From a virus, in IMG/VR virus record IMGVR_UViG_3300035698_020777, positions 1 to 21,579 of that record: 21,579 nucleotides of DNA, one strand, 5' to 3'. The position numbers and the translations under genes are program-made. Position 1 is the stretch's first letter. Each line of letters opens with the position of its first letter. Below are positions 840 to 21,277 of this stretch, one piece after another. Under the pieces are notes generated by a model. The model ran no database searches and was not told where the DNA came from. It saw only the letters and a program-made list of their open reading frames with translations.

Positions 840-852
840 TATATTTATATAA
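840..852 (+). promoter_or_regulatory. TATATTTATA motif, candidate phage late promoter
   Basis: TATATTTATATAA lies 3 bases before the ATG at 856; the 10-base core TATATTTATA ends 6 bases before it. It is a member of the repeated motif described in the findings and here has two extra bases before the final AA. A short weak hairpin (AATGAA / TTCATT, 827-840) ends against its first base. Confidence 0.5.
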
Positions 853-855
853 TGT

Positions 856-1290
856 ATGGGATTAAACTATGAAAAAGTATTTCAATTATTCTCTTTAGAG
901 AATACAGGTGTTTCTGACGAGATTTCATATGATGATCTTACTAACCATCCCATCTATTGGATTGGTATGTATAAAAAAATAGTTATTAATCAACCAAATG
1001 TTGAGGAATGGGTTAATAAATCTCTTAAAGAGCTGAAAGGGATGTCATTAAGTCATGAAGACCTGATCAAGGCAAACAAATTCATTAATTATAATAAAGC
1101 TTATAATTATCTTTTGAATTTTGATATCGAGAATAAAGAAAATCATAAATTATTAGAAAAATATGTTAATGATGAGTTACTGAATTCATTACATATGGGT
1201 ATTAAGTATTTTGAGGCTAGTACTGAATATGAAAAATGTGCATTTATTAAGAAAGTATATGATTTATCTATGAGTTTCCAAAGTAACTAG
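856..1290 (+). CDS. Hypothetical protein, 144 residues
   Basis: No family recognised. The product looks mostly helical, with alternating hydrophobic and Lys/Glu residues and no transmembrane segment or Cys pair that would suggest metal binding. It contains an aromatic patch, HPIYWIGMYK, near residues 31-40. It directly follows a candidate late promoter, so it may be expressed late, independently of the genes to its left. The ATG at 856 fits; the ATG at 852 is in another frame and closes quickly. A virion or morphogenesis role would fit late timing but nothing in the protein shows it. Confidence 0.7.
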   Translation: MGLNYEKVFQLFSLENTGVSDEISYDDLTNHPIYWIGMYKKIVINQPNVEEWVNKSLKELKGMSLSHEDLIKANKFINYNKAYNYLLNFDIENKENHKLLEKYVNDELLNSLHMGIKYFEASTEYEKCAFIKKVYDLSMSFQSN

Positions 1291-1342
1291 GATACGCAAG
1301 TTTTTCTATATAACTTCTCATCAAATAATTAATAAGAAAAAT

Positions 1343-1543
1343 ATGCAAAATAGAAATTTACTAATTAACAAAATTGAAACCTTAGAGGGGAAAATGAAAA
1401 TTTTGAAAAACAAAATCAATACTTCCAGACCAATTTCAGAATTCTTAAACGAAATAAATAAATCAGAGGATACTATTGAAGAAATTAAGACAATGATAAA
1501 TAGAGAGCCTAGAACAGCTAACGAACAAAATTACTTAGGATAA
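1343..1543 (+). CDS. Small coiled-coil protein, 66 residues
   Basis: The product is short, highly charged and predicted to be helical. Leu/Ile residues spaced as heptads at about 6-27 (LLINKIETLEGKMKILKNKI) suggest a coiled coil, followed by a Pro-containing break (SRPISEF) and a second helix ending in an IKTMINREP segment. The 52-base gap upstream (1291-1342) has no Shine-Dalgarno; it holds CTATATAAC at 1306-1314, which may be a degenerate promoter. Function unknown. Confidence 0.65.
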   Translation: MQNRNLLINKIETLEGKMKILKNKINTSRPISEFLNEINKSEDTIEEIKTMINREPRTANEQNYLG

Positions 1544-1563
1544 TAGGAAATAAAACATATATT

Positions 1564-2322
1564 ATGGCGAACAATCTAAACAAGTTTACACCTGAAGAGT
1601 TAATGGCTAATATGGAGGTATTTTATAATCTTATAAAGACATATATTCAGGAGCCACGACGTTCTAAATTACTAGAATTTTACAAAAAACACGAAGATGA
1701 ATTGGTATTAATGCCAGCATCTCATAAAACTGCATTTCATAGTGCATTTCCAGGCGGGTATATATCTCATGTTAATAGAGTAGTCCAAGCATCCTTAAGA
1801 ATAAACTCAGTATGGAAGGAGTTTGGAGTTGATACATCAACATATTCTATAGAGGAACTTGTTTTCTCAGCAATTAATCATGACCTTGGGAAAATGGGTG
1901 ATGGTACTAACTATAACTACACATTATCAACAGATAATTGGAGAATAAAGAATATGGGGGAAATATACGAACATAATGAAGCAATTGGTTTTATGAAAGT
2001 TCCAGATCGTTCACTATTTTTATTAGCTAATGCAGGAATAGAAGTATCTGAAAATGAGTGGGTAGCTATTCAAACTCACGATGGGTTATATGATGAAGGT
2101 AATGTAGCTTATTTAAAAGCATACTCAAATGCTTGTAGACCAAGAACTTCCATCCCATTTATATTACATCAGGGAGATATGTTAGCAGCAAGAGTAGAGT
2201 GGGAAAGTGATAATTTAGAACAATTCAAAACACAATCAACAAAAATTACTAAACCTACACCAAAAAAGGAGAATAAACCAAAAGTCAATAATGACTTATT
2301 AGATATGTTAAACCAATTATGA
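1564..2322 (+). CDS. HD-domain phosphohydrolase
   Basis: A 252-residue protein with the metal-binding series of the HD superfamily: H69 (YISHV), H106-D107 (INHDLGK), H137 (EHNEA), H172 (QTHDG) and D205 (LHQGD). The superfamily hydrolyses phosphate bonds in nucleotides, cyclic nucleotides or nucleic acid ends, and phages commonly use members to adjust nucleotide pools. The catalytic part seems to end near residue 220. A Lys/Pro-rich, probably disordered linker follows, then a short hydrophobic tail, DLLDMLNQL. The stop overlaps the next ATG (ATGA, 2319-2322). No good Shine-Dalgarno precedes it. Substrate unknown; a host-signal or defence nucleotide is possible but unproven. Confidence 0.82.
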   Translation: MANNLNKFTPEELMANMEVFYNLIKTYIQEPRRSKLLEFYKKHEDELVLMPASHKTAFHSAFPGGYISHVNRVVQASLRINSVWKEFGVDTSTYSIEELVFSAINHDLGKMGDGTNYNYTLSTDNWRIKNMGEIYEHNEAIGFMKVPDRSLFLLANAGIEVSENEWVAIQTHDGLYDEGNVAYLKAYSNACRPRTSIPFILHQGDMLAARVEWESDNLEQFKTQSTKITKPTPKKENKPKVNNDLLDMLNQL

Positions 2323-2627
2323 TAATTCCACTAACTATAACATCAGTAGTATTATTTCTTATAACTTGTACTTTATTATATACAACTAGAAATCTCCTCA
2401 GAAAACAGGAGAGGGCTGAAGATATTGTAAGTGGGTATTTACAGTATTTAGATTCATTGTCTAGGGTGATAGAAATTACAGATGAAAAATTAAAAGATTC
2501 AACTTTGAAGGAAGCATTTGAATCAGATGATGATATAGGTTTCTTCTTCAAACAAATTAAAAGTATTCAAGAAATCTTAAATGATTTCATATTAAAAGAA
2601 GATAAAGGAGATAAAGATAATGGATAG
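2319..2627 (+). CDS. Small membrane-anchored protein, 102 residues
   Basis: An N-terminal hydrophobic stretch at about residues 2-22 is followed at once by RNLLRKQER. By the positive-inside rule this places the rest of the chain in the cytoplasm. The remainder is a helical, acidic domain with DSLSRVIEITDEKL and a DDDIGFFFKQIKSIQ segment. I recall similar small single-span proteins in marine T4-like phages, but know no assigned function. It overlaps the HD gene by 4 bases and the sigma-factor gene by 8, so the three form one translational unit. Confidence 0.72.
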   Translation: MIIPLTITSVVLFLITCTLLYTTRNLLRKQERAEDIVSGYLQYLDSLSRVIEITDEKLKDSTLKEAFESDDDIGFFFKQIKSIQEILNDFILKEDKGDKDNG

Positions 2628-3579
2628 AATAATAGAAAAACACAGAAAGAAAAGACAAAAGAGAGATTACTTTGATCAAGAAACAGAGGATGCTATTATA
2701 CTTTACAACAATACAGAAAATCCCGATAAGAGGAGTAGAATATATGAAAAGAGCATTCATTATAGTTTATTTAAACTTACTCAAAACATAATTCACTCCT
2801 TCAAATTTTACCATACAGATGTCCAGAATTTAGAACATCTCCAACATGAAGTAATTATATTTTTACTTGACAGATTCCACTTATATGATCATAAGAAAAA
2901 TGTCCAAGATAAATTAGTTAAAATTATAATTAAAGATTTCAATAAAGTATTTACTGGTGATTTTGTTGATTTTGTGGGTAAAAATACCCTAAAAGTAACC
3001 CAAATCCAGATTGATAGATTTATAGATGCATTAGAATTAACTAATGATGAAAAAGATATTCTTAAAAGGAAAATAACACCACCAAAAGCATTTTCATATT
3101 TTGGTACTATAACAAAAAGATACCTTATTACTTACAATAAAAATAATTATAGTAAAAAAGTTAAAAATACATCATTAGATTACATATCAGATAATACAGA
3201 CAATGAAAATAATCAACACCAATCAATATTACATGATAATAAAATAATTGCTGATGAAGTTGATATTGATTTTAAAACACCACACATCAATAATGAAACT
3301 CCATTATATTATTTTATGGAAGATTACATTAAATATGTAGATGAGAATTTATATGAATTATTCCCCAAGGAATTAGATTGTAAAATTGCAGATGTAATAT
3401 TATGTTTATTCAAACAAAGAAACAGTATTCAAATATTTAACAAAAAAGTATTATACTTAAATGTTAGAGAAAGGATTGATGTAAATGCTCCAAAAATCAC
3501 AAAAATCACTAAAAAACTCTCCTCAATATTCACTAAAAGATATACGTTCTTCTTGGATAATGGTTACATTCCTAAGTAG
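2620..3579 (+). CDS. 55: gp55-like late-transcription sigma factor
   Basis: The product resembles the T4 gp55 type of sigma factor, which redirects host RNA polymerase to phage late promoters. The N-terminus is very basic (KHRKKRQKRDYF). Residues about 42-90 (SLFKLTQNIIHSF, then LQHEVIIFLLDRFHLYD) match the start of a sigma region 2, and residues 156-170 (KAFSYFGTITKRYLI) match its continuation, where sigma-70 proteins have an F-x-x-Y aromatic segment. About 60 residues separate the two halves, where the family usually has only a few, so an insertion is likely. The C-terminal 140 residues are charged with no obvious region 4. An AAGGAG sequence 9 bases upstream is one of the few Shine-Dalgarno-like matches here, though it lies inside the preceding gene. 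Confidence 0.75.
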   Translation: MDRIIEKHRKKRQKRDYFDQETEDAIILYNNTENPDKRSRIYEKSIHYSLFKLTQNIIHSFKFYHTDVQNLEHLQHEVIIFLLDRFHLYDHKKNVQDKLVKIIIKDFNKVFTGDFVDFVGKNTLKVTQIQIDRFIDALELTNDEKDILKRKITPPKAFSYFGTITKRYLITYNKNNYSKKVKNTSLDYISDNTDNENNQHQSILHDNKIIADEVDIDFKTPHINNETPLYYFMEDYIKYVDENLYELFPKELDCKIADVILCLFKQRNSIQIFNKKVLYLNVRERIDVNAPKITKITKKLSSIFTKRYTFFLDNGYIPK

Positions 3580-3581
3580 AG

Positions 3582-3592
3582 TATATTTATAA
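3582..3592 (+). promoter_or_regulatory. TATATTTATAA motif, candidate phage late promoter
   Basis: An exact copy of the 11-base motif lies two bases after the sigma-factor stop codon and 7 bases before the ATG at 3600. It would drive the baseplate block. If the last A of TATATTTA corresponds to the end of a -7/-10 element, transcription would begin about 5 bases before the start codon. Confidence 0.55.
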
Positions 3593-3599
3593 ATAAAAT

Positions 3600-3944
3600 A
3601 TGGGAGCGCTAGATGAAAAATTATTCGGAAAGAAAAAATTTTCCAATCTTCTTGAAGAGATATATAATAATCAAAAGAAGAAAGAAAAACAAATTGAAGG
3701 TCTAATAGAACAATTAAAACCATTAATTAAAGATATGGGAGATGCAACTGTCTTAGTTCCATTAATTAAAGAATATTTAGATTTAGGTATCAAAAATGAT
3801 GATCAATTAATTAAAATGGCAACAATTCTCCAAAGAATATTTAATTCATCATCTTCTTCATCTAATAATGATGGATCAGGATTATCAGAATCAGAAAAGA
3901 AAGAATTATTGGAAGAAGTTGAAAGGTTAAACAATATAGAGTAA
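3600..3944 (+). CDS. Small helical protein at the head of the baseplate block
   Basis: A 114-residue protein with a basic N-terminus (LFGKKKF), a long charged helix (about residues 16-45), a more hydrophobic segment with VPLIKEYLDLGIKNDDQLIK (about 53-72), a Ser/Asn-rich linker (about 83-94) and an acidic C-terminal helix. I recall similar short proteins beside the baseplate genes of other marine T4-like phages, but know no function. It is the first gene after the candidate late promoter and is one base from the spike gene, so a baseplate or assembly role is likely by context. A late-transcription accessory factor cannot be excluded, as it sits next to the sigma factor. Confidence 0.7.
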   Translation: MGALDEKLFGKKKFSNLLEEIYNNQKKKEKQIEGLIEQLKPLIKDMGDATVLVPLIKEYLDLGIKNDDQLIKMATILQRIFNSSSSSSNNDGSGLSESEKKELLEEVERLNNIE

Positions 3945-3945
3945 T

Positions 3946-5181
3946 ATGGCTTTAAAAAGACATAGTGGTGTAAGTTCTAAACAAACTACAAGTAAAAATC
4001 CAAACTCAAAAGACCAAATATTTAGTGCAAGAGTCCAATCAACTATATTAGATGACATTCAATATCCAGATCTATTTGAACAGTATGGAGGGTGGGCCTC
4101 TATAGGGGGAATTATGTTTAGGAATTTAAATTCTCCTGCACCATTTAAAGATTATTCAACTTCCAACTTCGCAAAACCCCTATTCCCTAATATAAAAACC
4201 CCACCTATAGAAAATGAGATTGTTTATATAATATCATTACCATCCCATAATCTTGAATCAAATATAAATGCTAATGAATATTATTATTTTCAACCTATAA
4301 ACTTATGGAACAGTGTTCATCACAATGCTATACCTGACCCTTTAGGGAACAATATTACCCCAACAACTCAAAACCAAGACTACCAACAAACATCAGCAGG
4401 ATCTACAAGAAGATCATCTGACGGGAATGAAGATATACCTTTGGGAGAAACATTTAAAGAAAAATCAAATATAAAATCATTATTACCTTTTGAAGGTGAT
4501 GTTATATATGAGGGGAGATGGGGAAATTCAATTAGATTTGGTAGTACTATTAATAACAGTAATGTAATTAATAATTGGTCTAGTGGAGGTAAAAATGGGG
4601 ATCCTATTATTATAATAAGAAATGGTCAATATGAGGATAATAAAGAATCATGGATACCCACTATAGAAGACATAAATAAAGATTTATCTAGTATTTGGCT
4701 CTGCTCTAACCAAATAATCCCTATCGAGTTAGCTAGTGAAGATTATAAATCATATGATGAATCTCCATCAAAATCCAACGAATATCAAGGGAAACAAGTA
4801 ATAATAACATCAGGAAGAATATTATTTAACGCAAATGACGATCATATAATTTTTAGTTCGAAAAAAACTATAAATCTCAACTCACAAAAGACGGTTAATA
4901 TTGATTCTAAAGAAGGAGTTATAATATCATCCAAATCAATACTACTAGGAGATAAAAATGCTACTGAATCATTGATATTAGGGGATAAATTTTTGTCTGA
5001 TCTAAAGAAAGTTTTAAACCAGTTATTTATATTAAGTAATGTCCTCCCTACAGTTGGAACTGTAACTCCATTCACTCCTAATGTTGCAGTAGCCCAAGCA
5101 TCAACCCAATTAGCTGCATTAGTGAAATCTATGTCTGGAAGGATAGAAACATTTAAATCAAAAACATCTAAAACTAAGTAA
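3946..5181 (+). CDS. gp5-like baseplate central spike protein without visible lysozyme domain
   Basis: A 411-residue candidate for the needle/spike at the tip of the tail tube. Residues about 30-60 (DDIQYPDLFEQYGGW...) and 182-202 (FEGDVIYEGRWGNSIRFGS) look like the OB-fold region of gp5/VgrG-like spikes. Residues about 286-345 form a run of short beta repeats (HIIFSSKKTINLNSQKTVNI, then further strands), the pattern of a trimeric beta-helix. The C-terminal 60 residues are helical and basic. T4 gp5 carries a muramidase domain between OB fold and helix; I see none here, only a Thr/Asn/Ser-rich stretch. The position before gp25 and gp6 supports the baseplate role. A different hub component is the alternative. 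Confidence 0.62.
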   Translation: MALKRHSGVSSKQTTSKNPNSKDQIFSARVQSTILDDIQYPDLFEQYGGWASIGGIMFRNLNSPAPFKDYSTSNFAKPLFPNIKTPPIENEIVYIISLPSHNLESNINANEYYYFQPINLWNSVHHNAIPDPLGNNITPTTQNQDYQQTSAGSTRRSSDGNEDIPLGETFKEKSNIKSLLPFEGDVIYEGRWGNSIRFGSTINNSNVINNWSSGGKNGDPIIIIRNGQYEDNKESWIPTIEDINKDLSSIWLCSNQIIPIELASEDYKSYDESPSKSNEYQGKQVIITSGRILFNANDDHIIFSSKKTINLNSQKTVNIDSKEGVIISSKSILLGDKNATESLILGDKFLSDLKKVLNQLFILSNVLPTVGTVTPFTPNVAVAQASTQLAALVKSMSGRIETFKSKTSKTK

Positions 5182-5969
5182 TGGGATTAGAAAAAATAGT
5201 AATATCTATAGTAAAGAATGTAGTGACAAATGTTACTAATTTTGAATCAAATATAGATAAGATTCAATCTAAATTTAAAGACGGTTGTCCTACAAAAAAA
5301 GAAATTTTAAGTATAATTTCTTCAAAGAATAAAATATCAACGGCATTAACTCAACTCCAATCCCAACTATCATCATTAAATAAAACTAAAACAACACTAG
5401 ACACTTCTAATAAGATATTCAAAGGCATAATTACAGTTGTAAAAAACATACCATCTCCTTCAGCAATAGCAGGAGTAGGAGTACCAATATCAGTAATAAC
5501 TAATTTATCAAGTGTTTTAGATACTCTTGGAGATAAAGTAAAACAGGGTGAAGGTGTATCTAATATAATTCCAAGTGTTGTAGATTCATTAGAAACTAAT
5601 ATAGAAAATACTCAATCCAAATTAAATAAATTAAATGAATCTATATTGAAATGTCTTAAAAATGAATTGGATGTATTGTCAGAAAATGAAAAAAGTGAAT
5701 TACTTAAAGAATTAAACATAGTTGTAGAAGATAAATCTAATTCAAATGATATATCTTTAGAAGACCAATTACAACCAGGTAGTGAAAATCCATTAAGTTA
5801 TAATGGTTTTGTATTAACTATAGAATTTGATCCTTCTAATGAATTCCCATTCCCTAGAAGGAGAATAAGAGCATTAAAGGATAAATTTGCAATTATAGGA
5901 GATTTATCATATAGTGCATCAGCTCAAATATTGATTGATGAAATAAAATTTAAAATCAACAACTTATAA
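5181..5969 (+). CDS. Coiled-coil virion structural protein of the baseplate region
   Basis: A 262-residue protein. Residues about 1-190 are mostly helical with long heptad-like stretches rich in Ser, Asn, Leu and Lys, containing a hydrophobic PSPSAIAGVGVPISVITNL segment near residue 92. The final 55 residues form a separate small beta-like domain starting YNGFVLTIEF and ending ILIDEIKFKI. I recall this two-part layout, including the short hydrophobic Pro/Gly segment, from hypothetical structural proteins near baseplate genes in marine T4-like phages. The start overlaps the preceding stop by one base (TAATG). Exact role unknown; a tube, hub or tape-measure-like part is possible. Confidence 0.65.
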   Translation: MGLEKIVISIVKNVVTNVTNFESNIDKIQSKFKDGCPTKKEILSIISSKNKISTALTQLQSQLSSLNKTKTTLDTSNKIFKGIITVVKNIPSPSAIAGVGVPISVITNLSSVLDTLGDKVKQGEGVSNIIPSVVDSLETNIENTQSKLNKLNESILKCLKNELDVLSENEKSELLKELNIVVEDKSNSNDISLEDQLQPGSENPLSYNGFVLTIEFDPSNEFPFPRRRIRALKDKFAIIGDLSYSASAQILIDEIKFKINNL

Positions 5970-5983
5970 AAAATTAATGAACA

Positions 5984-5994
5984 TATATTTATAA
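5984..5994 (+). promoter_or_regulatory. TATATTTATAA motif, candidate phage late promoter
   Basis: An exact 11-base copy lies 3 bases before the ATG at 5998, in a 28-base gap between genes. Used as a -7/-10 element it would place the transcription start at or beside the A of the ATG, giving a leaderless mRNA for the gp25/gp6 part of the block. Confidence 0.55.
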
Positions 5995-5997
5995 CAA

Positions 5998-6342
5998 ATG
6001 AAAGCAGGAGAATTAAAAAAATTAATAAAAGAAGCAGTAAGGGAAGCAATTCAAGACGAATTGAAGGAGATATTATTGGAATCAATTAGATCACCAAAAC
6101 AAATAATCCAAAACAACCAACCTTATGATACTCCACCCTTAATAAACTCCCAAACTAATAATATTAGCAATCCCCCTGGTAATATAAGGGAGTCTTATAT
6201 GAAAGTATTGAACGAAACAGCAACACCTACAAATGAATCAATACAAGGATCATTTAAACCTAGTCTGAGTGGTGGTGCTGATGGTGAGTTGGGAGTTGGG
6301 GATATGGGTGAAGATCAAATAATGGCATTGTTGAATAGTTAA
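5998..6342 (+). CDS. Small protein with amphipathic N-terminal helix, 114 residues
   Basis: Residues 1-30 form a strongly amphipathic, charged helix (KKLIKEAVREAIQDELKEIL). The middle is Asn/Pro/Thr-rich and probably disordered, and the C-terminus is Gly/Asp-rich, ending DQIMALLNS. Such a helix-linker-peptide layout suits a scaffold or connector that tethers two partners, which is inference only. I do not recognise a named family. It has its own motif-type promoter and lies 6 bases before gp25, so it should be expressed with the baseplate wedge genes. Confidence 0.65.
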   Translation: MKAGELKKLIKEAVREAIQDELKEILLESIRSPKQIIQNNQPYDTPPLINSQTNNISNPPGNIRESYMKVLNETATPTNESIQGSFKPSLSGGADGELGVGDMGEDQIMALLNS

Positions 6343-6348
6343 TAAAAA

Positions 6349-6756
6349 ATGGCTGAAATAATAAATAATAAATTCCCGTTAGATTTAGATGATAGAAAAA
6401 TCATTGGGTTTGGATTTCCTTTTAATGGAGATGCTGTGTTTCAACCAACATATACTACTAAAGACCAAATTAAGGCCAACTTAATTAATTATTTATTAAC
6501 TAATAAGGGTGAAAGATATTTTAACCCCAATTTTGGGGCAGACTTAAGAAATCTTTTATTCAATGTCATTGATATAGAAAATCAAAATGATTTAAGAGAC
6601 CGCATACAAGAAGATATCTCTCTTTTTTTTCCTGATGTTGTTGTTAATGAGATTGGATTTAATAACCAAACAGACAGAAATACTATATATTTTACATTAA
6701 ATTATTCAATTAGGAATTTTGGTGTAGAAGATGAAATTAACATTGATTTAAACTAA
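6349..6756 (+). CDS. 25: Baseplate wedge protein gp25
   Basis: A 135-residue member of the Gp25/IraD-like family, usual length for it. The family signature is clear: IGFGFPF (residues 19-25), then LLTNKGERYFNPNFGADLR (residues about 49-67), close to the conserved NKGER...P.FG...R...F core of T4 gp25 and its relatives in contractile tails and type VI secretion (TssE). gp25 joins gp6 in the wedge and helps start the sheath. The gene overlaps the gp6 start by one base (TAATG), keeping the standard gp25-gp6 order. Confidence 0.95.
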   Translation: MAEIINNKFPLDLDDRKIIGFGFPFNGDAVFQPTYTTKDQIKANLINYLLTNKGERYFNPNFGADLRNLLFNVIDIENQNDLRDRIQEDISLFFPDVVVNEIGFNNQTDRNTIYFTLNYSIRNFGVEDEINIDLN

Positions 6757-8615
6757 TGGCTGAGAAAAAGAGAGATATCCGATATGTAAATAAGAATTTT
6801 AATGATTATAGAGATTCCTTAATTGAATATTCTAAAGCATATTTTCCTGATTCTTATAATGATTTTTCAGATGAATCAACAGGGATGTTATTTATGGAAA
6901 TGGCATCTTATGTAGGTGATGTCCTTTCATTTTATCTTGATAACCAAATCCAAGAAACATATTTAACTAATGCCAGACAAACAGAAAATCTCTACAATAT
7001 GGCTTATATGTTGGGGTATAAACCTAAAGTAACAACAGCATCCACAGTTGAGTTAGATGTTTACCAACAACTCCCTTCAATATTAATAGGAGGAGAACAT
7101 GTTCCTGATTATTCTTATGCTTTAAAAATACAAGCAAATTCCCAAGTGAATTCAAGTATTGATACTTCCAATAAATTCTTAATAGGAGATGCTATAGATT
7201 TTTCATATAGTAGTTCAAATGACCCTACCGAAGTAACTGTATATGCATTGCAAGGAACACAACCACAATATTTTTTATTAAAAAAAACAAGAAAAGCAAT
7301 TTCTTCAACAATTAATTCAACAACATTTACATTTTCAAGTCCACAGAAATTTGATACTAGAACTATAACAGATCCAAACATAATAGGTATATTAGATGTA
7401 ATTGATGGGGAAGGGAATGTTTGGTATGAAGTACCCAACCTAGCCCAAGAAACGATTTATGATTCTATATCTAACACCACCCAAAATGACCCCAACTTAT
7501 CAGGGGATGGTAGTGTATCTGATCTTCTAAGATTAAAACAAGTCCAAAGAAGATTTGCATCACGTTTTTTAAATGAGTCGAAATTACAATTACAATTTGG
7601 AGCTGGAGGAACTAATTTAAATGATGAAGAAATAATCCCAAACCCAGACAATGTTGGTTTAGGTTTACCCTTTGATAAGGATAAAATGACTACAGCATTT
7701 TCTCCACTAAATTTTGTATTCACTAATACTTATGGATTAGCCCCTTACAACACAACCCTCACAGTTAGGTATTTAACTGGTGGAGGTGTATCTTCTAATA
7801 CAGCAGCAAACACAATAAATAGCATTAATGGAGGTATCACATTTGCAAATTCAACTGTTTCAAACTCCACATTAGCAAACTCAATATATGCATCAGTAGC
7901 CTTAAATAACATTAAAGCAGCAAGTGGAGGTAAAAGTGGAGATACTACAGAAGAAATAAGACAGAATACAGTAGGGAATTTCCAAAACCAATTAAGAACA
8001 GTTACTCCCCAAGATTTTGTTATAAGATCTTTAAGTATGCCTTCTAATTTAGGGAGTATATCAAAAGCATATGTAACACCTTCAAAAGTAGGAGAATATA
8101 ATTTAGGAGAACTACCATCTGTTTTAGATCTATATGTATTGTCTTATGATTCTTCAAAGAATCTAACTCAAGCAGGTACTACTTTAAAACATAATTTAAA
8201 AACATACCTATATGAATATAGAATGATTAATGATAAAATTAACATTAAAGATGCTTTTATTATTAATATAGGAATTGAATTTGATATAACAGTACTCCCC
8301 AACTACAACAGTAATGAAGTACTAACAAGATGCATAACAGAACTAATATCATCATTTCAAATAGATAAGTGGCAAATTAACCAACCCATAATTTTAAGAA
8401 GTTTATATGTATTATTAGATCAAGTAGAAGGAGTTCAAACTGTTAAGGATATTAAAATCACAAACAAAACTGGAGCTAATCTAGGATACAGTGAATATGC
8501 TTATGATATAGAAGGAGCTACCATAAATAATGTTGTTTACCCTAGTATTGATCCTATGATATTTGAATTAAAATTACCCAATACAGACATCAAAGGCCGC
8601 ATAACTGGTCTCTAA
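6756..8615 (+). CDS. 6: Baseplate wedge protein gp6 (baseplate J family)
   Basis: A 619-residue homologue of T4 gp6, the wedge protein that forms the continuous ring of the baseplate. The N-terminal 110 residues hold the strongest match: NKNFNDYRDSLIEYSKAYFP, then DESTGMLFMEMASYVGDVLS, then QETYLTNARQTENLY and MLGYKPK. These are typical of the T4-like gp6 branch of baseplate J-like proteins. The C-terminal half (about residues 400-619) holds EIRQNTVGNF, TPQDFVIRSL and VEGVQTVKDIKITNKTG, matching the J-like core. The length is close to T4 gp6. The start codon overlaps the gp25 stop. Confidence 0.95.
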   Translation: MAEKKRDIRYVNKNFNDYRDSLIEYSKAYFPDSYNDFSDESTGMLFMEMASYVGDVLSFYLDNQIQETYLTNARQTENLYNMAYMLGYKPKVTTASTVELDVYQQLPSILIGGEHVPDYSYALKIQANSQVNSSIDTSNKFLIGDAIDFSYSSSNDPTEVTVYALQGTQPQYFLLKKTRKAISSTINSTTFTFSSPQKFDTRTITDPNIIGILDVIDGEGNVWYEVPNLAQETIYDSISNTTQNDPNLSGDGSVSDLLRLKQVQRRFASRFLNESKLQLQFGAGGTNLNDEEIIPNPDNVGLGLPFDKDKMTTAFSPLNFVFTNTYGLAPYNTTLTVRYLTGGGVSSNTAANTINSINGGITFANSTVSNSTLANSIYASVALNNIKAASGGKSGDTTEEIRQNTVGNFQNQLRTVTPQDFVIRSLSMPSNLGSISKAYVTPSKVGEYNLGELPSVLDLYVLSYDSSKNLTQAGTTLKHNLKTYLYEYRMINDKINIKDAFIINIGIEFDITVLPNYNSNEVLTRCITELISSFQIDKWQINQPIILRSLYVLLDQVEGVQTVKDIKITNKTGANLGYSEYAYDIEGATINNVVYPSIDPMIFELKLPNTDIKGRITGL

Positions 8616-8624
8616 TAATTAATT

Positions 8625-9743: not shown

Positions 9744-10186
9744 TGAAAGCACCACTACAAAGACAAGTATTTAATAGAAAAGAATTTGATAACACAGTTA
9801 ATACTAAATATACACAATTAGTAAATGAATTAGACTTATCATTTTTTGATATTAATTTAGCTACTATAGATGATTTCTTTACATTATATAGTAATTTATT
9901 TTTTGAAATTCCTCAAAATGGGGAAATAAATTCACATGAATATATTGCGAAAAAAAGTGGGGAATATGCTAATTTCTTAGAATTAGATGGGCAAATAAGT
10001 GCTCTTTTAGATGAAATAACTTCCTTAAGGGAAGAAAATTTGGAATTACGAAGAGAAAATATTAACATCCTATTACCAACATCAACTAATAAAAAACCCT
10101 TAATAAAAGGAATAATACAACAAACTCCAAAAATCCAACTTTTAACTGCTGTAAATAGTAAAACCACCCCCAAATCAAAACAATAA
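9743..10186 (+). CDS. Small structural protein with C-terminal coiled coil, 147 residues
   Basis: Residues about 40-80 carry a compact motif of the type DDFFTLYSNLFFEIPQNGEI followed by NSHEYIAKKSGEYANF. A clear leucine/isoleucine heptad helix follows at about 78-108 (LREENLELRRENI), then a basic, unstructured tail (TTPKSKQ). I recall similar short proteins before the large fibre-like gene in marine T4-like phages, but no known function. One-base TAATG overlaps join it to the genes on both sides, so it is probably made in step with them. A chaperone or an oligomerising connector for the giant protein is a fair guess. Confidence 0.65.
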   Translation: MKAPLQRQVFNRKEFDNTVNTKYTQLVNELDLSFFDINLATIDDFFTLYSNLFFEIPQNGEINSHEYIAKKSGEYANFLELDGQISALLDEITSLREENLELRRENINILLPTSTNKKPLIKGIIQQTPKIQLLTAVNSKTTPKSKQ

Positions 10187-13100: not shown

Positions 13101-16050
13101 CAATAACAATAAAATTGAAATTGTTGAAAGTTCTTCTTATGGAAATATATTATCTTTAAATACATCTATTGAACAACAATACCAAAAAGATGAAGATTAT
13201 AATGAAAATTTAAATACTTTAGAAGTTGCATTCTCCCCACAAAATGAAATAAATGATGATATTACTCAAACATATGGGTTTGGAGTTCTCCAAGATATAT
13301 TAGGAGATCCAAGATCAATATTATCTTCTGAAGATTATTATCCCGAATTAAGAAAATTATCAACAGATTATTTCAAAAAATTTAAAAAATCTAACGTAAC
13401 AGATTATATTAAATTAATAAAATATTTTGATAATTCATTATTTAAAGCAATTAAGAACTATGTCCCTGCAAGAACAAGTTTATCAACAGGAATAGTAATT
13501 AAACAACATTTACTAGAAAGGAATAAATATAGGGCCCCAAATATATCAGTTGAATATAGTTCATCCCAAACATATCTTACAGCAAGTTTCGAAACAGATT
13601 TTATGTCTGGGAGTAGTGGAGGATCAACAGATCAATTCAATTATTACTTATCATCATCTACATTCTCATCTACTGGATCAATAGGAATACATAATGGTAT
13701 AGATGATGTATTAGCGTTGGGGACTAACATCACATTCTCTCTATTCAATTCATTCCAAACTTCATCACAAGCATATGCTGGTACTTATAGTGCCCAAGGC
13801 CAAACTCAACCAGGATTTAACCAAGCAACAGCCCAATTCTCCCATTCAATTACGGTAAATGTCCCTGACATCGTAGACGTTAGGATGCATATTTATCTAG
13901 AAAGCGCATTGAATAGTGGATCATTATTTGAATTATATGCCAGAACATCAGATTTTCCTATTTCACAAGTCAATTTAGTAAATTACTTTAATACTAGTTC
14001 TATACAATCTTGGCAAACATTAAATATCCCTATCTCAGACTTTGGATTATCTGGACCTACATTAGATGCTTGGTGGATTTATTTAGCAGATACAAATAAT
14101 GCTATTTGGTATTTAGATAATTTTGAATATTCCATTAATAATGATGATGTAACTACTTACTATGATTCTAATTACAATGTATTAACGGGGGATAACTTAT
14201 TGAATTGGAAATTTAATAAGATAGAAAACACACAGTCATGGGATAATACGTTTGATACTGAAGGGGGATTACAGACTATAATAGAAAACACTCAAAAAGA
14301 ACTATATGATGGTGAATATAGTGGGAGTATATTAACTGTAACTACTACCAGCTTAAACCCTGACAACCCAATAAAGAAATACAACTATGATAACTTCACA
14401 GGCTCTACAATACATTATGATTCTTGGAACCCTAAATTAAATAATGTTGAAGATGTAAGAACTAATAAATTTAAACAAGATGTAGATTATTCTTATGATT
14501 TAAAAACTCCAATAAATTTAGATAACATAAAATCGGGTAGCGCTCTATTAGCTACAGTCCCAGAAAGTAATTATACTACAGCAAGGATTATTAATCCTAG
14601 ATATAGAGGGACAAAGGTATCAAGTTTAACATACAATACATTTACTCCATCAGGAAGTATATCACCTGACATAACATTAAGGTCGGGAATATTAACAACA
14701 TATAACCCATCCCCAATATTCTTAAATGGAGATACGGGATCTTATGGAGGTGATATATCATATGGTAAAAACTCAGTAATAGACACTAGACCTACATATT
14801 TTGCACATTTTAAATCATCCCATAATAATTATAATCTTTGGGGTACTTACACATATACACTAGACCAGCTAATCCTCATACCAGATGAAGATATTAGAGA
14901 AGTACAAGGATATCAACCAATAACTATTCAATTAAATAATGATACCAGAAATACTGTTGATGTTTCAAGTACATTTGGTAATGGTAGAAAGACAACAGCA
15001 GTATATAATTCATTGGTAAAAGATGGTATAGATTATACTAAACTAAAGGTAGGTTCATTTAACATATTCCAGGGAGCATTAGATTTTACAACCCTAAATA
15101 CAAACCAGAAATTAGAGATGGAATTAGCCCCCTCATGGTCATATAATAGATTTGGTCAATTATATAGTGGTTCAAACACTAATTCCCAATCACTAAAGCC
15201 TGTGGTTCAACTCCACACTTCTAGCAAATCAAACGAATTATATTTAAGTGGCAGTCAATTAGGCCCCAATGATTATATTTCATTTTTTAACTCCCAAAGT
15301 CAAGGTAAGAGTTTTGGGGTTGGGTTATGTTCATTAGTTGGTCCTCAACTCCAAGTAATGAATAATTATAATAACTACTTATATAACAGAATCACCAGTT
15401 CTGATGTGTCTAGTGATACTGGGACTCGTTGGACTATGTGGGTGGATCCTTCCTTAAATCCTAAAGACATAAATAATTATTTTATATTAAATCCAAACTA
15501 CCAACAAACACCAGGATATGAAACTCCAAACCAACCATTCATGGTATTACCAGGAGATGAAATTAGAGTTTCTTATCTATATACAGGCTCAAATGCAAAC
15601 GACGCAAAAAGAACAGTAGAACAAGATTTTGTAGTAACAGGATATGCTCAAGGAGCAAAAACTGGAGCAGACATTTATCCTCATTCTCCTGGTAGTGTGA
15701 ATAATAATTATGTCCTTCAACAAAATGGTGTAGGATCTGCAACAGGTGTGATAGGATTTAAAACAAAGGCATATGATACTCTAGTAGTTGAACCAGATCC
15801 TAAAACAATAGAATTCCCTATACCTAAAGGAGAAATTTTTTACTTTACAATTAGAAGAAGAACAGAATCTTCAAATAAAGTAATAGTATACTCTAATGCC
15901 CCATCAGGTACATTAGGACAATCCACAAAATCAGGAGAAGGTTTTCTGATACCAGATGATTGTACTGAAATCCAAAAAGATAATATTAAAAATATAATAA
16001 CTCAACTAAGAGGTAAAAATTCTTTTAGAGATGATAATTCTACAGCCTAA
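10186..16050 (+). CDS. Giant modular virion protein with lectin-like domains, 1954 residues
   Basis: By far the largest gene of the window. Approximate layout: 1-330, beta-rich N-terminus; 440-600, helical region ending in YLVKKKGTISGLRQLINIWG and INEFGG, a motif I recall from large structural proteins of many uncultured phages; 640-870, LamG/concanavalin-A-like region finishing FQEFRLYSNPI; 1040-1120, helical region with NYVPARTSLSTGIVIKQHLL and ERNK; 1170-1320, jelly-roll-like domain ending AIWYLDNFEYS; 1320-1954, beta-rich tail. Ser, Asn, Thr and Gly dominate, with many TGS/SGS turns. The position after gp6 suggests a baseplate-peripheral or adhesin role; it could take the place of T4 gp7 or gp10. 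No frameshift is seen along its whole length. Confidence 0.75.
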   Translation: MDISSSINNISPSTITDSGFELIDQNIIPNQIFEGSFTPEIDKIELFIYDFNKNIIHSNYQFKDYSISDDKLITEENTVTQLQLNPKEDLLNEGLNQGNYYSIYNFIHNELSSSQEEKYFISEISSDRTEIKIGSNFISNENIESSYNKLKSKLNNPEYFDEFYISFDGNVSFIGVNILLEKEDNKNVILIKLYQSLPPQIKLKDEIYITTRVAETIAYEIKYFPNNSFITKKKFIQGPNINIKLNDEINNSTDYKSYQELTTSLLTGSNDQLSNILNRKGVTITPNYSKDTFDEFIHFSSAKDRINNFIQKISLIESYENNITSINSVTGSTSSSIQVSQSANILENKIKDIKSHFDGYEYFLYYESGSSSYPKSNTTPPFTLYSTGSSNTLTWLGSDDELNVNYGGIVLSASLYDNNNSDNLEYAIPEFIRDNADNQQYINFTHMMGQHFDELWLYIKSITDKSNTTNELDKGIPLQLVNEAIKSLGFEGISNNYNNSDNFIGLTGLSGNGDYQLPSGSEMITDLISINSGNLSSSFNPEDEFLSAFPYAVDDISKEIYKRLYHNMSYLVKKKGTISGLRQLINIWGVPNTILRINEFGGKNRDNTNDYDSWNKRYSYAYNTNSTSSILIPWITTGKNSLDGVGANGIPSTILFRFKTPGIPSTTTGLRTTQSLLSKRIINDQTNTSTEFGINLYYSGSTSSGSYSGSIMDLNNKYGSIQFFISGSSVINQSSSRITLPFFDGDWWSVMLQKRTLSNGDKKYELIAKNNIYDGYDGNKIGYQSSSSFTNSPIGDIATNNHWKSYSTGSETGIYLGGFISGSKLGNLQISSTGSLFSGSFQEFRLYSNPIAESHFDDYVMNPESIEGNQTTGSDSSFDLLSFRAPLGNELETKFETTQYNFHSQSFNSIHPSNTTSTTLLNTASFVDYQDLNYSSSDYKVIYYSSSFTGAYSEPIVQTIYRDQLAAGVRNFNNNKIEIVESSSYGNILSLNTSIEQQYQKDEDYNENLNTLEVAFSPQNEINDDITQTYGFGVLQDILGDPRSILSSEDYYPELRKLSTDYFKKFKKSNVTDYIKLIKYFDNSLFKAIKNYVPARTSLSTGIVIKQHLLERNKYRAPNISVEYSSSQTYLTASFETDFMSGSSGGSTDQFNYYLSSSTFSSTGSIGIHNGIDDVLALGTNITFSLFNSFQTSSQAYAGTYSAQGQTQPGFNQATAQFSHSITVNVPDIVDVRMHIYLESALNSGSLFELYARTSDFPISQVNLVNYFNTSSIQSWQTLNIPISDFGLSGPTLDAWWIYLADTNNAIWYLDNFEYSINNDDVTTYYDSNYNVLTGDNLLNWKFNKIENTQSWDNTFDTEGGLQTIIENTQKELYDGEYSGSILTVTTTSLNPDNPIKKYNYDNFTGSTIHYDSWNPKLNNVEDVRTNKFKQDVDYSYDLKTPINLDNIKSGSALLATVPESNYTTARIINPRYRGTKVSSLTYNTFTPSGSISPDITLRSGILTTYNPSPIFLNGDTGSYGGDISYGKNSVIDTRPTYFAHFKSSHNNYNLWGTYTYTLDQLILIPDEDIREVQGYQPITIQLNNDTRNTVDVSSTFGNGRKTTAVYNSLVKDGIDYTKLKVGSFNIFQGALDFTTLNTNQKLEMELAPSWSYNRFGQLYSGSNTNSQSLKPVVQLHTSSKSNELYLSGSQLGPNDYISFFNSQSQGKSFGVGLCSLVGPQLQVMNNYNNYLYNRITSSDVSSDTGTRWTMWVDPSLNPKDINNYFILNPNYQQTPGYETPNQPFMVLPGDEIRVSYLYTGSNANDAKRTVEQDFVVTGYAQGAKTGADIYPHSPGSVNNNYVLQQNGVGSATGVIGFKTKAYDTLVVEPDPKTIEFPIPKGEIFYFTIRRRTESSNKVIVYSNAPSGTLGQSTKSGEGFLIPDDCTEIQKDNIKNIITQLRGKNSFRDDNSTA

Positions 16051-16079
16051 TATAAGTTGGATTAAAAAAATAAAATTGA

Positions 16080-16090
16080 TATATTTATAA
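16080..16090 (+). promoter_or_regulatory. TATATTTATAA motif, candidate phage late promoter
   Basis: An exact 11-base copy sits in the 68-base gap after the giant gene, flanked by an inverted repeat TTGAT (16076-16080) and ATCAA (16090-16094). It is 28 bases before the next start codon, the farthest of the set, so the mRNA would have a true leader of roughly 20 bases. The gene behind it is the only one here that clearly begins with TTG. Confidence 0.55.
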
Positions 16091-16118
16091 TCAAATTAAT
16101 AACTAAAAACAAAATATT

Positions 16119-16781
16119 TTGGGCTTTCTTTCAAATCAAATCGTAACTATTGACGCTATTTTAACAAAAAAAGGTAGAGAACTCTTAGCCAGAGGAGATG
16201 GCTCATTCAAAATTACTCAATTTGCTTTAAGTGATGATGAGATTGATTACACTTTATACAACCCTACCCACCCCTCAGGATCATCATATTATGGAGAAGG
16301 AATTACAAATATGCCTTTATTAGAAGCATTCCCTGATGAAACTCAATCAGTAAAATACAAATTGGTAACTTTACCTAGAGGTACTTCAAAGATGCCAATT
16401 TTGGATATTGGGTATCAATCAATAACAATGAAACAGGGCACTACATTAGCTTTAACTCCCCAAACATTAAATTATCTTGGAGCAAATACATCTAATGAAT
16501 CTTCTGGATACACTGCAACAATTTCTGATGTTAGATTATTTAATAAATTTACTGGATTAGGGATTAATAATGAACAATCAACAAAATTAAATACAAACCA
16601 AACGATAGGCACCAACGTATCTAAAACAGTAATAGGAACTACTATTAATTTAACTGCAACTACAGTTAATACTTTATTTAATACGAACACAACAATCAAA
16701 GCGCAACTGATAATAACAGGCCGAGACAGTGGTGCAAGGTTAGTAATCCCAGTAACAATCACCCAAACAGCAACAGTATAA
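16119..16781 (+). CDS. Conserved virion structural protein, 220 residues, TTG start
   Basis: The first 65 residues are highly characteristic: MGFLSN, then ILTKKGRELLARGDGSFKIT, then FALSDDEIDYTLYNP and SGSSYYGEGI. I recall closely similar starts in structural proteins of T4-related marine phages, beginning at the same MGFLSN, which supports TTG 16119 as the start since no ATG is available upstream in frame. The rest is Thr/Asn-rich and beta-like, with a C-terminal domain ending RLVIPVTITQTATV. It stops one base before the next gene. It is likely part of the tail or fibre structure; the exact location in the virion is unknown. Confidence 0.7.
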   Translation: MGFLSNQIVTIDAILTKKGRELLARGDGSFKITQFALSDDEIDYTLYNPTHPSGSSYYGEGITNMPLLEAFPDETQSVKYKLVTLPRGTSKMPILDIGYQSITMKQGTTLALTPQTLNYLGANTSNESSGYTATISDVRLFNKFTGLGINNEQSTKLNTNQTIGTNVSKTVIGTTINLTATTVNTLFNTNTTIKAQLIITGRDSGARLVIPVTITQTATV

Positions 16782-16782
16782 T

Positions 16783-17796
16783 ATGAAAAGATTTGACCAA
16801 GAAGATATAGTAATTAGCGCAGATTCAATCACATCCACAGTTTGGAGTGATAATACCCCTACTCTAACAAAATTCTTTACCTCATCAGCACAAGAAACAG
16901 CCAACACAGGAGATTATTACTTGAATACCTACCAAACTTCTTCAGACTTATCTAACTCAGCAATCCAGTTTGGTATGGCTTATGGTCATAAAGGGGGGAG
17001 TGGGAGTTTGAATTACAATGTATTAGTATCTGGTTCTTCACCAACAAGAACTATTTATGGACAACATAGGACTTTAGTATTAGGAGATGAAAGTGCAAAT
17101 TTCATATATGGGTCTCATACAGGGTCTGATTTTTTCACTGTTTCTGTAGAAAGAGCAAGATATAAAGAAAAATTACTACCTGGAACAATGACATTTCATA
17201 TATCAACATCAGCGGGTGAAGTAGTATTGACTGATGATAGCTTAAATGGAGCTCCTGTAACATATAATGATGCTGGTAGAGTATACCAAATAGTATCAGG
17301 ATCATCAGGAGCTATATATACAGGAAACAACTCAAACGGATATGCTAATACAACTGCATCATATGGTTTATTTCTTCCAGACATAGGAACAATACTCCTA
17401 AACCCAGATGCATTATCTGGTTCTGAAGCTAATGGAGGTATTGGGTTAGGAGTATTAAGGAACTCAAACACAGATGATAAAAACCCTGCAAAATTATTTA
17501 ATGCAATTAGTGGAGGTGCTTCATTTTTATTAAATAGTGAAGAAACACTTTCATCCATGTTCGCATTTGTAAGAGCAAGAAACTCAGAATTTAACTATAC
17601 TCAAAACCCATCATTCATATCGGGAAGTACAGGAGCTATATTATATGATTCATTTATTAACAGTCCCCAAACATATATAGCATCAGTTGGGTTATATAAT
17701 GATAGTAATGAATTATTAGCAGTAGCAAAATTATCTAGACCATTAGTGAAAGACTTTACTAAGGAATTGCTTTTGAGAGCAAAGTTGGACTTTTAG
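16783..17796 (+). CDS. Fibre-like virion protein A, 337 residues
   Basis: A Ser/Gly/Thr-rich, beta-type protein with the N-terminus MKRFDQEDIVISADSITSTV. Mid-regions include TIYGQHRTLVLGDES (near residue 90) and VERARYKEKLLPGTMTFHIS. The C-terminal 45 residues (about 293-337) contain SVGLYNDSNELLAVAKLSRP and end FTKELLLRAKLDF. The GLYNDSNELLAVAKLS module recurs in the next gene, which therefore seems to be a diverged copy. Both are probably tail-fibre or decoration proteins, inferred from composition and position. It is separated from the preceding gene by one base, with no Shine-Dalgarno. Confidence 0.68.
   Translation: MKRFDQEDIVISADSITSTVWSDNTPTLTKFFTSSAQETANTGDYYLNTYQTSSDLSNSAIQFGMAYGHKGGSGSLNYNVLVSGSSPTRTIYGQHRTLVLGDESANFIYGSHTGSDFFTVSVERARYKEKLLPGTMTFHISTSAGEVVLTDDSLNGAPVTYNDAGRVYQIVSGSSGAIYTGNNSNGYANTTASYGLFLPDIGTILLNPDALSGSEANGGIGLGVLRNSNTDDKNPAKLFNAISGGASFLLNSEETLSSMFAFVRARNSEFNYTQNPSFISGSTGAILYDSFINSPQTYIASVGLYNDSNELLAVAKLSRPLVKDFTKELLLRAKLDF
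17687..17736 (+). repeat. Paralogous coding repeat, copy 1
   Basis: 50 bases in the end of fibre-like protein A that match 18658-18707 at 46 of 50 positions by my alignment. They encode the GLYNDS/ELLAVAKLS module. Confidence 0.8.
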
Positions 17797-17820
17797 GTTT
17801 TATAACTAGTGCTGTTAGTC

Positions 17821-17831
17821 TATTTATGTAA
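17821..17831 (+). promoter_or_regulatory. Diverged late-promoter-like motif (TATTTATGTAA)
   Basis: TATTTATGTAA lies 9 bases before the ATG at 17841, in a 44-base gap. It shares TATTTAT with the exact copies but lacks the leading TA and has a G where they have A. Placement supports it, sequence only partly. Confidence 0.3.
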
Positions 17832-17840
17832 TAAAAATAA

Positions 17841-18770
17841 ATGAGTGCATTTAAACAATTTACTACTAAAGATATAATAATAACTCCATTCAACACCAAC
17901 AAATCATTCTCATTTGAGGGAAGTGAAATAACTGGTTCTGATGTAGGTATTGAATATTACTTAGGAAGTAAACCAATAAATAACTTATTTATTTCATCTT
18001 CATCATCACCTACAGGATATGTTAACATCCAAAATACTACTGGAGTTTATCACTCAATGAAACAGTTATATTATTCTAACTACTTATCTTCTAGCACAGG
18101 AGATTTAGTTAATTCACAAAGTTTGGTATTAGGAGCAAATGAAGAAGGTAACAGATTTGTAGGTAGGATTAATTCCCCAATATATGAAAATTATCTACAA
18201 ACAACCTTATCTCAATCAAGATACTTCCCCACAAATTCATTAGATGAGATATCTGTAATTTCTATCCCAGTAAAATTATATGGTAATAATATTTTACCCA
18301 CATCATTTGTCTTTACTACAAGGACTGAAAATGGCCAAGAACATAGCATCACAGATGATGGAGAAGGAAATCTAATAAGCGCTTCAATATCAGTAGGTCA
18401 AATATTTTATTCACATGGTATAGCAATACTTACTTCAGGATCATTAGGTAATGCATTCTCACAATCACTTAGTCGATTAACAGCATCTAATATAGCATTT
18501 CAATCCTCATACAATATATTTGAGAATCAATATAAATGTACTATTAGTGAAAACGAATTTGGTTGCTCTTTAAACCCAACATTATTGTCAGGGAGTTTAG
18601 ATGATCAATATCATGATTTTGCAACAGGTTCTATATTTACTCCATATCTAACTACTATTGGGTTATATAGTGATAGTCAAGAATTACTAGCAGTAGCAAA
18701 ATTATCTCAACCAATCCAATTAAGTAATAATACTGACATGACATTTATTATTGGTTGGGATCAACTTTAG
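17841..18770 (+). CDS. Fibre-like virion protein B, 309 residues, paralogue of the preceding gene
   Basis: The overall plan matches the gene before it: a start of the form MSAFKQFTTKDIIITPFNTN, a mid-region SQSLVLGANEEGNRFVGRIN parallel to HRTLVLGDES in protein A, and a C-terminal TIGLYSDSQELLAVAKLSQP. The last 15 residues differ (LSNNTDMTFIIGWDQL), so the end has diverged or been replaced. Between these landmarks the sequence is only loosely similar, which suggests an old duplication with rapid change, as expected for host-contact proteins. The role as fibre or decoration protein is inferred. Confidence 0.68.
   Translation: MSAFKQFTTKDIIITPFNTNKSFSFEGSEITGSDVGIEYYLGSKPINNLFISSSSSPTGYVNIQNTTGVYHSMKQLYYSNYLSSSTGDLVNSQSLVLGANEEGNRFVGRINSPIYENYLQTTLSQSRYFPTNSLDEISVISIPVKLYGNNILPTSFVFTTRTENGQEHSITDDGEGNLISASISVGQIFYSHGIAILTSGSLGNAFSQSLSRLTASNIAFQSSYNIFENQYKCTISENEFGCSLNPTLLSGSLDDQYHDFATGSIFTPYLTTIGLYSDSQELLAVAKLSQPIQLSNNTDMTFIIGWDQL
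18658..18707 (+). repeat. Paralogous coding repeat, copy 2
   Basis: Partner of 17687-17736 with four mismatches, in the same frame and at the corresponding position of the neighbouring gene. Confidence 0.8.
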
Positions 18771-18774
18771 AACT

Positions 18775-19224
18775 ATGTGGATTTATCAAGGTAAAGAAAT
18801 AACAACATTAGAGGATTTTAAAGATCAAACCCCATTTGGTTTTGTGTATAAAGTAACTAATATAGAAACAGATAAATTCTACATTGGTAAAAAACAAATA
18901 ATGTCCTACACTAATAAAAAATTAGGAAAAAAGGAATTAGCAGCATTACCAATAACTAGAGGAAGAACAGCATCAAAAAAGATAGTTATTAAAGAATCTA
19001 ATTGGAAATCTTATTGGGGTAGTCATAAAGGTTTAACAGAAGAAATTAAAGAATTAGGTAAAGATAAATTCAAACGAGAAATTTTATTATTAGTTTATAC
19101 TAAGAAGGAATTAACTTATTTTGAATTAGCATACCAAATCAAATATGATGTTTTGAGAGTTAATAGCTATAACGATTCTATATTAGGTCGTTATTTTTAT
19201 AAAGATTTTACTGTTCCTGAATAA
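18775..19224 (+). CDS. SegE-like GIY-YIG endonuclease
   Basis: A 149-residue free-standing nuclease of the GIY-YIG superfamily. GFVY at 22-25 stands for the GIY element and YIGKK at 36-40 for YIG. These are followed by SNWKSYWGSH (75-84), KREILLLV (100-107) and a helix with YFELAYQ, in which E117 is the likely metal-binding Glu. This arrangement, starting MWIYQGKEI, fits the SegE-type homing endonucleases of T4-like phages. No separate DNA-binding domain follows. The ATG at 18775 is preferred, 4 bases after the fibre-gene stop; an in-frame TTG at 18751 would overlap that gene and add residues outside the family pattern. It probably spreads its own locus among co-infecting phages. Confidence 0.78.
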   Translation: MWIYQGKEITTLEDFKDQTPFGFVYKVTNIETDKFYIGKKQIMSYTNKKLGKKELAALPITRGRTASKKIVIKESNWKSYWGSHKGLTEEIKELGKDKFKREILLLVYTKKELTYFELAYQIKYDVLRVNSYNDSILGRYFYKDFTVPE

Positions 19225-19235
19225 TATATTTATAA
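19225..19235 (+). promoter_or_regulatory. TATATTTATAA motif, candidate phage late promoter
   Basis: An exact 11-base copy that begins one base after the nuclease stop and ends 2 bases before the ATG at 19238, the closest spacing of the set. A start of transcription at the A of the ATG would be expected if it acts like a -7/-10 element. Confidence 0.55.
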
Positions 19236-19237
19236 AC

Positions 19238-19441
19238 ATGCCTATAACAGGAACACCCAACTGCATTGAAGGTAGAGATAAGGTAGTATTTACATGGGAT
19301 GGAGCTGATATTTGTTGGGGTGCTAATCCTTATTGTTGGGATGAAGTTTATTTTTTAGTTCATTTAGGTAGAAGAGCTAATTTAACTGGAGCTGACCAAT
19401 TTGATTGTGTTGCTTATGGTTTTTCAAGAGAAAAGGAATAA
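19238..19441 (+). CDS. Very small Trp/Cys-containing protein, 67 residues
   Basis: The protein has the central segment TWDGADICWGANPYCWDEVY (about residues 19-38), with three Trp-containing repeats of the type W-(D/G)-(G/A) or CWD, followed by YFLVHLGRRANL and a C-terminal GFSREKE. It has three Cys in the first 33 residues and one later, too irregular for a clear zinc site. I recall short W-repeat proteins in T4-like phages of this kind but no function. A dedicated, exact promoter motif directly in front suggests it is highly expressed late, as a minor structural or assembly protein might be. Confidence 0.62.
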   Translation: MPITGTPNCIEGRDKVVFTWDGADICWGANPYCWDEVYFLVHLGRRANLTGADQFDCVAYGFSREKE

Positions 19442-19470
19442 AGTATATTGTTTTATTAGATAAATTTTAT

Positions 19471-19482
19471 TATATTACATAA
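19471..19482 (+). promoter_or_regulatory. Diverged late-promoter-like motif (TATATTACATAA)
   Basis: TATATTACATAA ends 2 bases before the primase ATG at 19485. It keeps TATATT and ATAA but has AC in place of the central T. Primase is usually expressed early, so this may be a related promoter of another class or a chance AT-rich match. Confidence 0.3.
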
Positions 19483-21233: not shown

Positions 21234-21277
21234 CATTATAACCAATTCCACACCATACTGCGTGACTTACTTGGTTA
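21210..21277 (+). promoter_or_regulatory. Two interlocking inverted repeats before the last gene
   Basis: ACGCAGT (21210-21216) pairs with ACTGCGT (21257-21263), and TAACCAA (21239-21245) pairs with TTGGTTA (21271-21277). The order of the arms is that of an H-type pseudoknot or of two alternative hairpins. The last arm ends directly before the ATG at 21278, so the structure could control access to that start. Seven-base matches can arise by chance. Confidence 0.25.

Follow-up and report, generated by a model that had tools for sequence, protein, structure and literature searches.

A probable late promoter in a large lineage of T4-like phages including Flavobacterium phage immuto, and a candidate phage sigma factor to read it

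Introduction

How T4-like phages transcribe their late genes is textbook knowledge, and the RNA polymerase of the Bacteroidota uses unusual promoters. The T4 late promoter has a register of -13 to -6, and in the T4-like phage Aeh1 a diverged version of it, CTAAATA, is paired with a diverged gp55 (PMC1524935). Promoters of the Bacteroidota sigma-A consist of a -33 TTTG and a -7 TAHHTTTG element (PMC6847099). In F. johnsoniae the -7 element spans -12 to -5, transcription starts 4–5 nt after it, the DNA is AT-rich near -18 and -28, and leaders are longer than 10 nt in 87% of cases (PMC6847099).

The element described here, ATATTTATAA, works like the T4 late system but is not a member of it by consensus sequence. 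As in T4, a single short AT element lies near late genes, mostly with no -33/-35 element, the phage encodes a sigma-70-like factor, and T4-like virion genes stand behind the promoter. Unlike in T4, where the consensus is TATAAATA, the element is accompanied by an A-tract and an AA, and in the immuto branch the host polymerase comes from another phylum. Aeh1 provides a precedent for the joint divergence of late element and gp55 in a T4-like phage, although its element has another sequence and the sigma factor found here is much more distant. The literature that we searched (without preprints and most subscription papers) contained no description of this late promoter in Bacteroidota T4-like phages. 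The phage group itself is large and little studied, with at least one member infecting Flavobacterium.

Results

A repeated intergenic element in a T4-like phage fragment

The window, by which we mean the whole 21.6 kb stretch of DNA analysed, is a viral fragment bearing T4-like baseplate genes. Among annotated phages, the cultured Flavobacterium phage immuto (160 kb) is its best relative, with a gp6-like protein that is 47% identical, and gene order is the same in both, running from a phosphohydrolase through a sigma candidate to the baseplate. A preliminary description had placed TATATTTATA at five positions, all on the + strand, intergenic and followed by a start codon, with the last four copies continuing as the 11-mer TATATTTATAA. 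Exact searches confirmed this and found no other copy in the window: TATATTTATA has five copies on the + strand and none on the other (1.02 copies expected from dinucleotide shuffles, none of 100 reaching five), always between ORFs, the next start codons being at 856, 3600, 5998, 16119 (a TTG start) and 19238. The 11-mer is confined to 3582, 5984, 16080 and 19225, with no copy on the - strand and 0.21 expected under an order-3 Markov model. One-mismatch versions of ATATTTATAA were not in excess (17 vs 22.9 expected), indicating that the element is sharply defined. A chance origin of the motif was rejected on the basis of the shuffles, the order-3 expectation and the conservation before orthologous genes presented below. 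The features of the window discussed in the text are as follows.

840, 3582, 5984, 16080, 19225 (+ strand): copies of TATATTTATA in the 21.6 kb window
840..849 (+ strand): TATATTTATA followed by T (TATATTTATAT), possible host-type promoter, TTG at 817
2620..3579 (+ strand): sigma-70 family factor, proposed late sigma, with region 2 and a C-terminal helical domain
3582..3592 (+ strand): candidate late promoter core TATATTTATAA, 7 nt 5' of the gene 3600 ATG and directly 3' of the sigma gene
5984..5994 (+ strand): candidate late promoter core TATATTTATAA, 3 nt 5' of the ATG of gene 5998, the first gene of the gp25/gp6 baseplate block
5998..8615 (+ strand): baseplate genes behind the 5984 site (5998, gp25-like 6349-6756, gp6-like 6756-8615), from PHROG matches
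16057..16059 (+ strand): host-type -33 TTG superimposed on the putative late core, 20 nt 5' of TATATTTA at 16080
16080..16090 (+ strand): candidate late promoter core TATATTTATAA of a putative hybrid site, upstream of gene 16119 (TTG start)
19225..19235 (+ strand): probable late promoter core TATATTTATAA, an exact copy, 2 nt 5' of the gene 19238 ATG

Conservation before orthologous genes

Searching IMG/VR for relatives of the gp6-like gene yielded 301, of which 80 loci were kept. Across these loci TATATTTATAA was present 54 times on the + strand and not once on the - strand. The core had earlier been read as the reverse complement of the T4 late box; we rejected this because the element points towards the downstream gene, and regard the likeness as incidental. 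Read as transcribed, the motif departs from the T4 consensus TATAAATA, matching it at 6 of 8 positions. A literal TATAAATA at 3588, overlapping one of the copies, was rejected as the true element as well, not being conserved in relatives.

The preliminary description had proposed comparing the promoter regions of relatives and scanning for copies inside genes or before early genes, and both comparisons came out in favour of a promoter. In the 80 relatives, 164 of 192 + strand copies of the 9-mer TATTTATAA were intergenic, where intergenic DNA amounts to ~3% of sequence (ORFs ~97%), and 99% of the intergenic copies with a following ORF lay no more than 45 nt from its ATG. Motif discovery without a seed returned TATTTATAANNAAA and ATATTTATAA. 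The exact 9-mer was found upstream of the gene 3600 orthologue in 53/53 relatives, whose 17 distinct upstream sequences have almost nothing invariant except the motif and the AAA that follows it, and upstream of the gene 5998 orthologue in 68/69. Behind the latter site, the gp25-like and gp6-like products match PHROG tail/baseplate families, and no intergenic gap of at least 12 nt was seen before gp25 or gp6 in the relatives. For gene 16119, the exact 9-mer preceded the orthologue in 10/10 relatives. Neither protein 16119 nor protein 19238 retrieved relatives when used singly as a query, but an alignment did so for 16119; of the 79 usable orthologues of this gene from a further scan, 70 had TATTTATA upstream, and eight of the remaining nine had ATATTTAT. 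For gene 10186, the exact 9-mer was upstream of the orthologue in 15 of 52 relatives.

The 16080 site differs from the other conserved sites in its TTG. Among the relatives of gene 16119, 13 of 57 distinct sites have a TTG between core -24 and -26, most often at -25, and immuto has one too. As judged from sequence, the coincidence of a TTG at host spacing with the late core suggests that 16080 is a late/host-type hybrid, which in part of the group both holoenzymes could read. The proposed late set of five copies therefore survives in part: 3582, 5984 and 16080 are conserved and 19225, an exact copy, is probable, whereas the 840 copy looks host-type and is probably not a late promoter. We set it apart because its last A is missing and it is not conserved (9-mer upstream of the gene 856 orthologue in only 2/42 relatives), despite its TTG-N20; with four TTG-N20-TATATTTA sites in the window vs 2.1 expected, even that arrangement may be chance. 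The looser versions of the motif that had been noted before 17841 and 19485 were not borne out: the two orthologues found for 17841 had no motif before them, and for 19485 the relatives yielded no usable upstream sequence.

The 9-mer did not occur upstream of the phosphohydrolase gene in any of 46 relatives, 44 of which have a gap there, or upstream of the sigma gene in any of 50, and no late motif or host-type promoter was found upstream of the sigma operon in relatives. In LR756508, a 484 kb phage with a sigma orthologue, no late motif was seen by eye around the gp6-like gene. Orthologues of the phosphohydrolase (window gene 1564) carry a conserved AAAGTT directly 5' of the ATG, for example at loci L067, L055 and L060; it is distinct from the late motif and possibly a translation signal.

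Late-gene bias in immuto and related phages

With late status assigned by annotation, homology and gene order rather than timing, and the immuto late region drawn by us from the annotation (78.9-101.3 and 114-160 kb), TATTTATA precedes 17/38 late-region gaps in immuto vs 7/79 gaps elsewhere (Fisher p = 1.7e-5). These sites include terminase, portal, tail sheath, tail tube and tape measure, and a minority of motif copies stand before genes outside the late region. A 164 kb contig (G002) shows the same bias, with the motif before 9/19 gaps of immuto-late homologues vs 1/18 of other homologues. Across dozens of diverged relatives the element keeps its place in front of the same virion genes, and it is late-biased in immuto and G002, which supports its earlier designation as a late promoter.

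The small-gene (early) region of immuto, at 60-76 kb, has host-type TTG-N20-TATATTTAG instead of the late motif; ~20 copies precede small genes there (NC_055915, locus L006), most of them followed by GGTATCAATAATTAAAAC or something similar. Elsewhere in NC_055915, at 25038, 43392 and 118992, terminator-like hairpins with T runs were seen by eye directly 5' of immuto motifs, as would be expected if transcription restarts there. No such sites stood before genes in the unrelated Bacteroidota phages FCL-2 and crAss001 (first half of the latter) or in two T4 stretches.

In Mel-JY01, many of the virion genes among those listed are preceded by ATATTTAT, ~40-50 nt from the ATG, with SD-like GGAG/AGG near the start. 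The element keeps its shape while the distance grows to fit the leader, which is how a promoter, but not a translation signal, would be expected to behave. This phage (PP395634) is listed for Microcystis, and has the baseplate block and sigma in common with Bacteroidota-type phages, yet its leaders are SD-like.

A candidate late sigma factor

The gp55-like factor of the preliminary description holds in so far as ORF 2620-3579 encodes a factor with sigma-70 region 2; the support comes from weak profile scores and the fold, and clear homology to T4 gp55 was not seen. The product is 28% identical to immuto gp118. The Sigma70_r2 profile matches 22 of 24 members of the orthologue family (best 1.3e-4, with the one fully listed member falling short of the Pfam cut-off), and the PHROG late sigma profile matches 15 of the 24 as single members (best 0.0025). 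In genome searches, the latter recovers the same ORF and no other in both immuto and G002 (1.6e-4 in G002). A relative modelled with AlphaFold2 (pLDDT 73.7) retrieved sigma factors throughout its match list, and its best superposition on sigma region 2 had a Z of 9.7 and an rmsd of 2.3 Å over 91 residues.

Direct alignment to T4 gp55 alone with hhalign gave no significant result, and the gp45 and gp33 profiles matched T4 only. A diverged clamp may have escaped this search, since G002 and Mel-JY01 have a gp44-like clamp loader, although none was found in immuto. The window sigma also has an insertion of ~60 residues (~residues 96-155) within region 2, which is absent from 35 aligned relatives.

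Taking together the position, strand, conservation and late bias of the element and the sigma fold, we consider it very likely that ATATTTATAA is a late promoter of a large T4-like lineage including immuto, and that the ORF 2620-3579 sigma would read it on host RNA polymerase. It seems to us unlikely that this late promoter is read by another factor, such as a second sigma, an activator or a modified host sigma, with ORF 2620 acting elsewhere. Many phage genes are of unknown role, the complete-genome search covered this sigma family only, and we infer the pairing of motif and ORF 2620; against this, a search of five records for the sigma family found exactly one gene in each, Mel-JY01 included, and the PHROG late-sigma profile led to that same single ORF in immuto and G002.

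Fine structure and the predicted start site

Across 166 non-redundant sites, the distance from the first T of the core to the ATG was at least 11 nt, and in 94% at most 35 nt; two distances of 8 were set aside, as they look like misplaced starts. In the pooled sites A-TATTTATAA is preceded by an A-tract (AAAA, -18 to -15) and a T (-13) and followed by AA (core +11/+12), and we take the whole as the refined element. The A at -1 was built into the search pattern for the pooled sites, and was present in all 57 distinct gene 16119 sites picked without that requirement. The AA at core +11/+12 is retained whatever the distance to the ATG, and since it persists when the ATG is far away, we regard it as part of the promoter; it may be the start site.

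Applying the F. johnsoniae register to the motif would place the start at core +10 or +11, in agreement with the 11-nt lower limit, whereas the T4 register would place it at core +13, for which the motif-to-ATG distances of 11-12 are short. Transcription is accordingly predicted to start ~10-13 nt after the first T of the core. Under either register, late mRNA leaders would in many cases be 0 to a few nt long, and some late mRNAs may be leaderless.

These details also bear on whether the motif is an ordinary host sigma-A promoter, its TATATTTA fitting the -7 TAHHTTTG and being read by the host holoenzyme, a reading to which we give little credence. TATATTTA lies in the -7 register and recurs in immuto early promoters, the upstream DNA is AT-rich as in F. 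johnsoniae, and TTG is at host spacing for 16080 and 840. Most sites, however, have no TTG: one was found near host spacing in 0/17 distinct gene 3600 sites, in 2/41 at 5998 (within 1 nt) and in 13% of the pooled sites, and within the window the combination of -33 TTG and -7 TAHHTTTG is seen in part at 16080 and 840, the other three copies being without TTG. Moreover, the final G is always A, conservation extends through TAA, the position two bases ahead of the core, where the host has T-12, varies, and early and late genes have different forms. Of the proposed blend of a phage late sigma with a host -7 element, the register accordingly remains plausible, whereas the -33 TTG and the final G are missing from most sites.

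That the motif acts in translation initiation on Bacteroidota mRNAs, as part of an A/U-rich, Kozak-like leader and with no promoter function, is very improbable: it does lie near the ATG, and Shine-Dalgarno sequences are lacking in Bacteroidota, but its distance from the ATG ranges from 11 to >30 nt between genes, genes abutting the preceding gene have no motif, nor does FCL-2, Mel-JY01 combines a distant motif with SD-like leaders, and the phosphohydrolase orthologues have AAAGTT, another short sequence, directly before the ATG.

Discussion

If ATATTTATAA is a late promoter served by the phage sigma, the ORF 2620-3579 product would join the host RNA polymerase, and the polymerase bearing it would open DNA at the -10-like ATATTTATAA, mostly without a -33 element, so that transcription of virion-gene blocks would begin from there. 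Early genes would be served by host-type promoters (TTG-N20-TATATTTAG in immuto), and at gene 16119 and its orthologues late and host-type signals would be superimposed in part of the lineage. We offer a more detailed version tentatively, thinking it somewhat likelier to fail than to hold: with its region 2 and a C-terminal domain of its own, the sigma would reprogramme the Bacteroidota polymerase to a late promoter that lacks -33 and keeps the host -7 register, some promoters would be read by both holoenzymes, and transcription would start on or next to the AUG, producing leaderless virion mRNAs.

The motif provides a direct means of predicting late genes across hundreds of uncultured phages, and the sigma and its putative promoter form a pair that can be studied on the Flavobacterium polymerase. 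With the motif so close to the AUG, leaderless translation in the Bacteroidota, whose mRNAs mostly carry leaders, becomes a question that can be tested.

Two start codons deserve mention. A late motif at NC_055915 1337-1355 (TATTTATAAATG) overlaps the start annotated for immuto gp002 (1346), which is followed 9 nt later by an ATG in the same frame. In the window, 21271-21301 holds a TTGG...TTCGTATATTTA closely resembling the immuto early promoters, which overlaps the start of ORF 21278; the true start of this ORF may lie further downstream.
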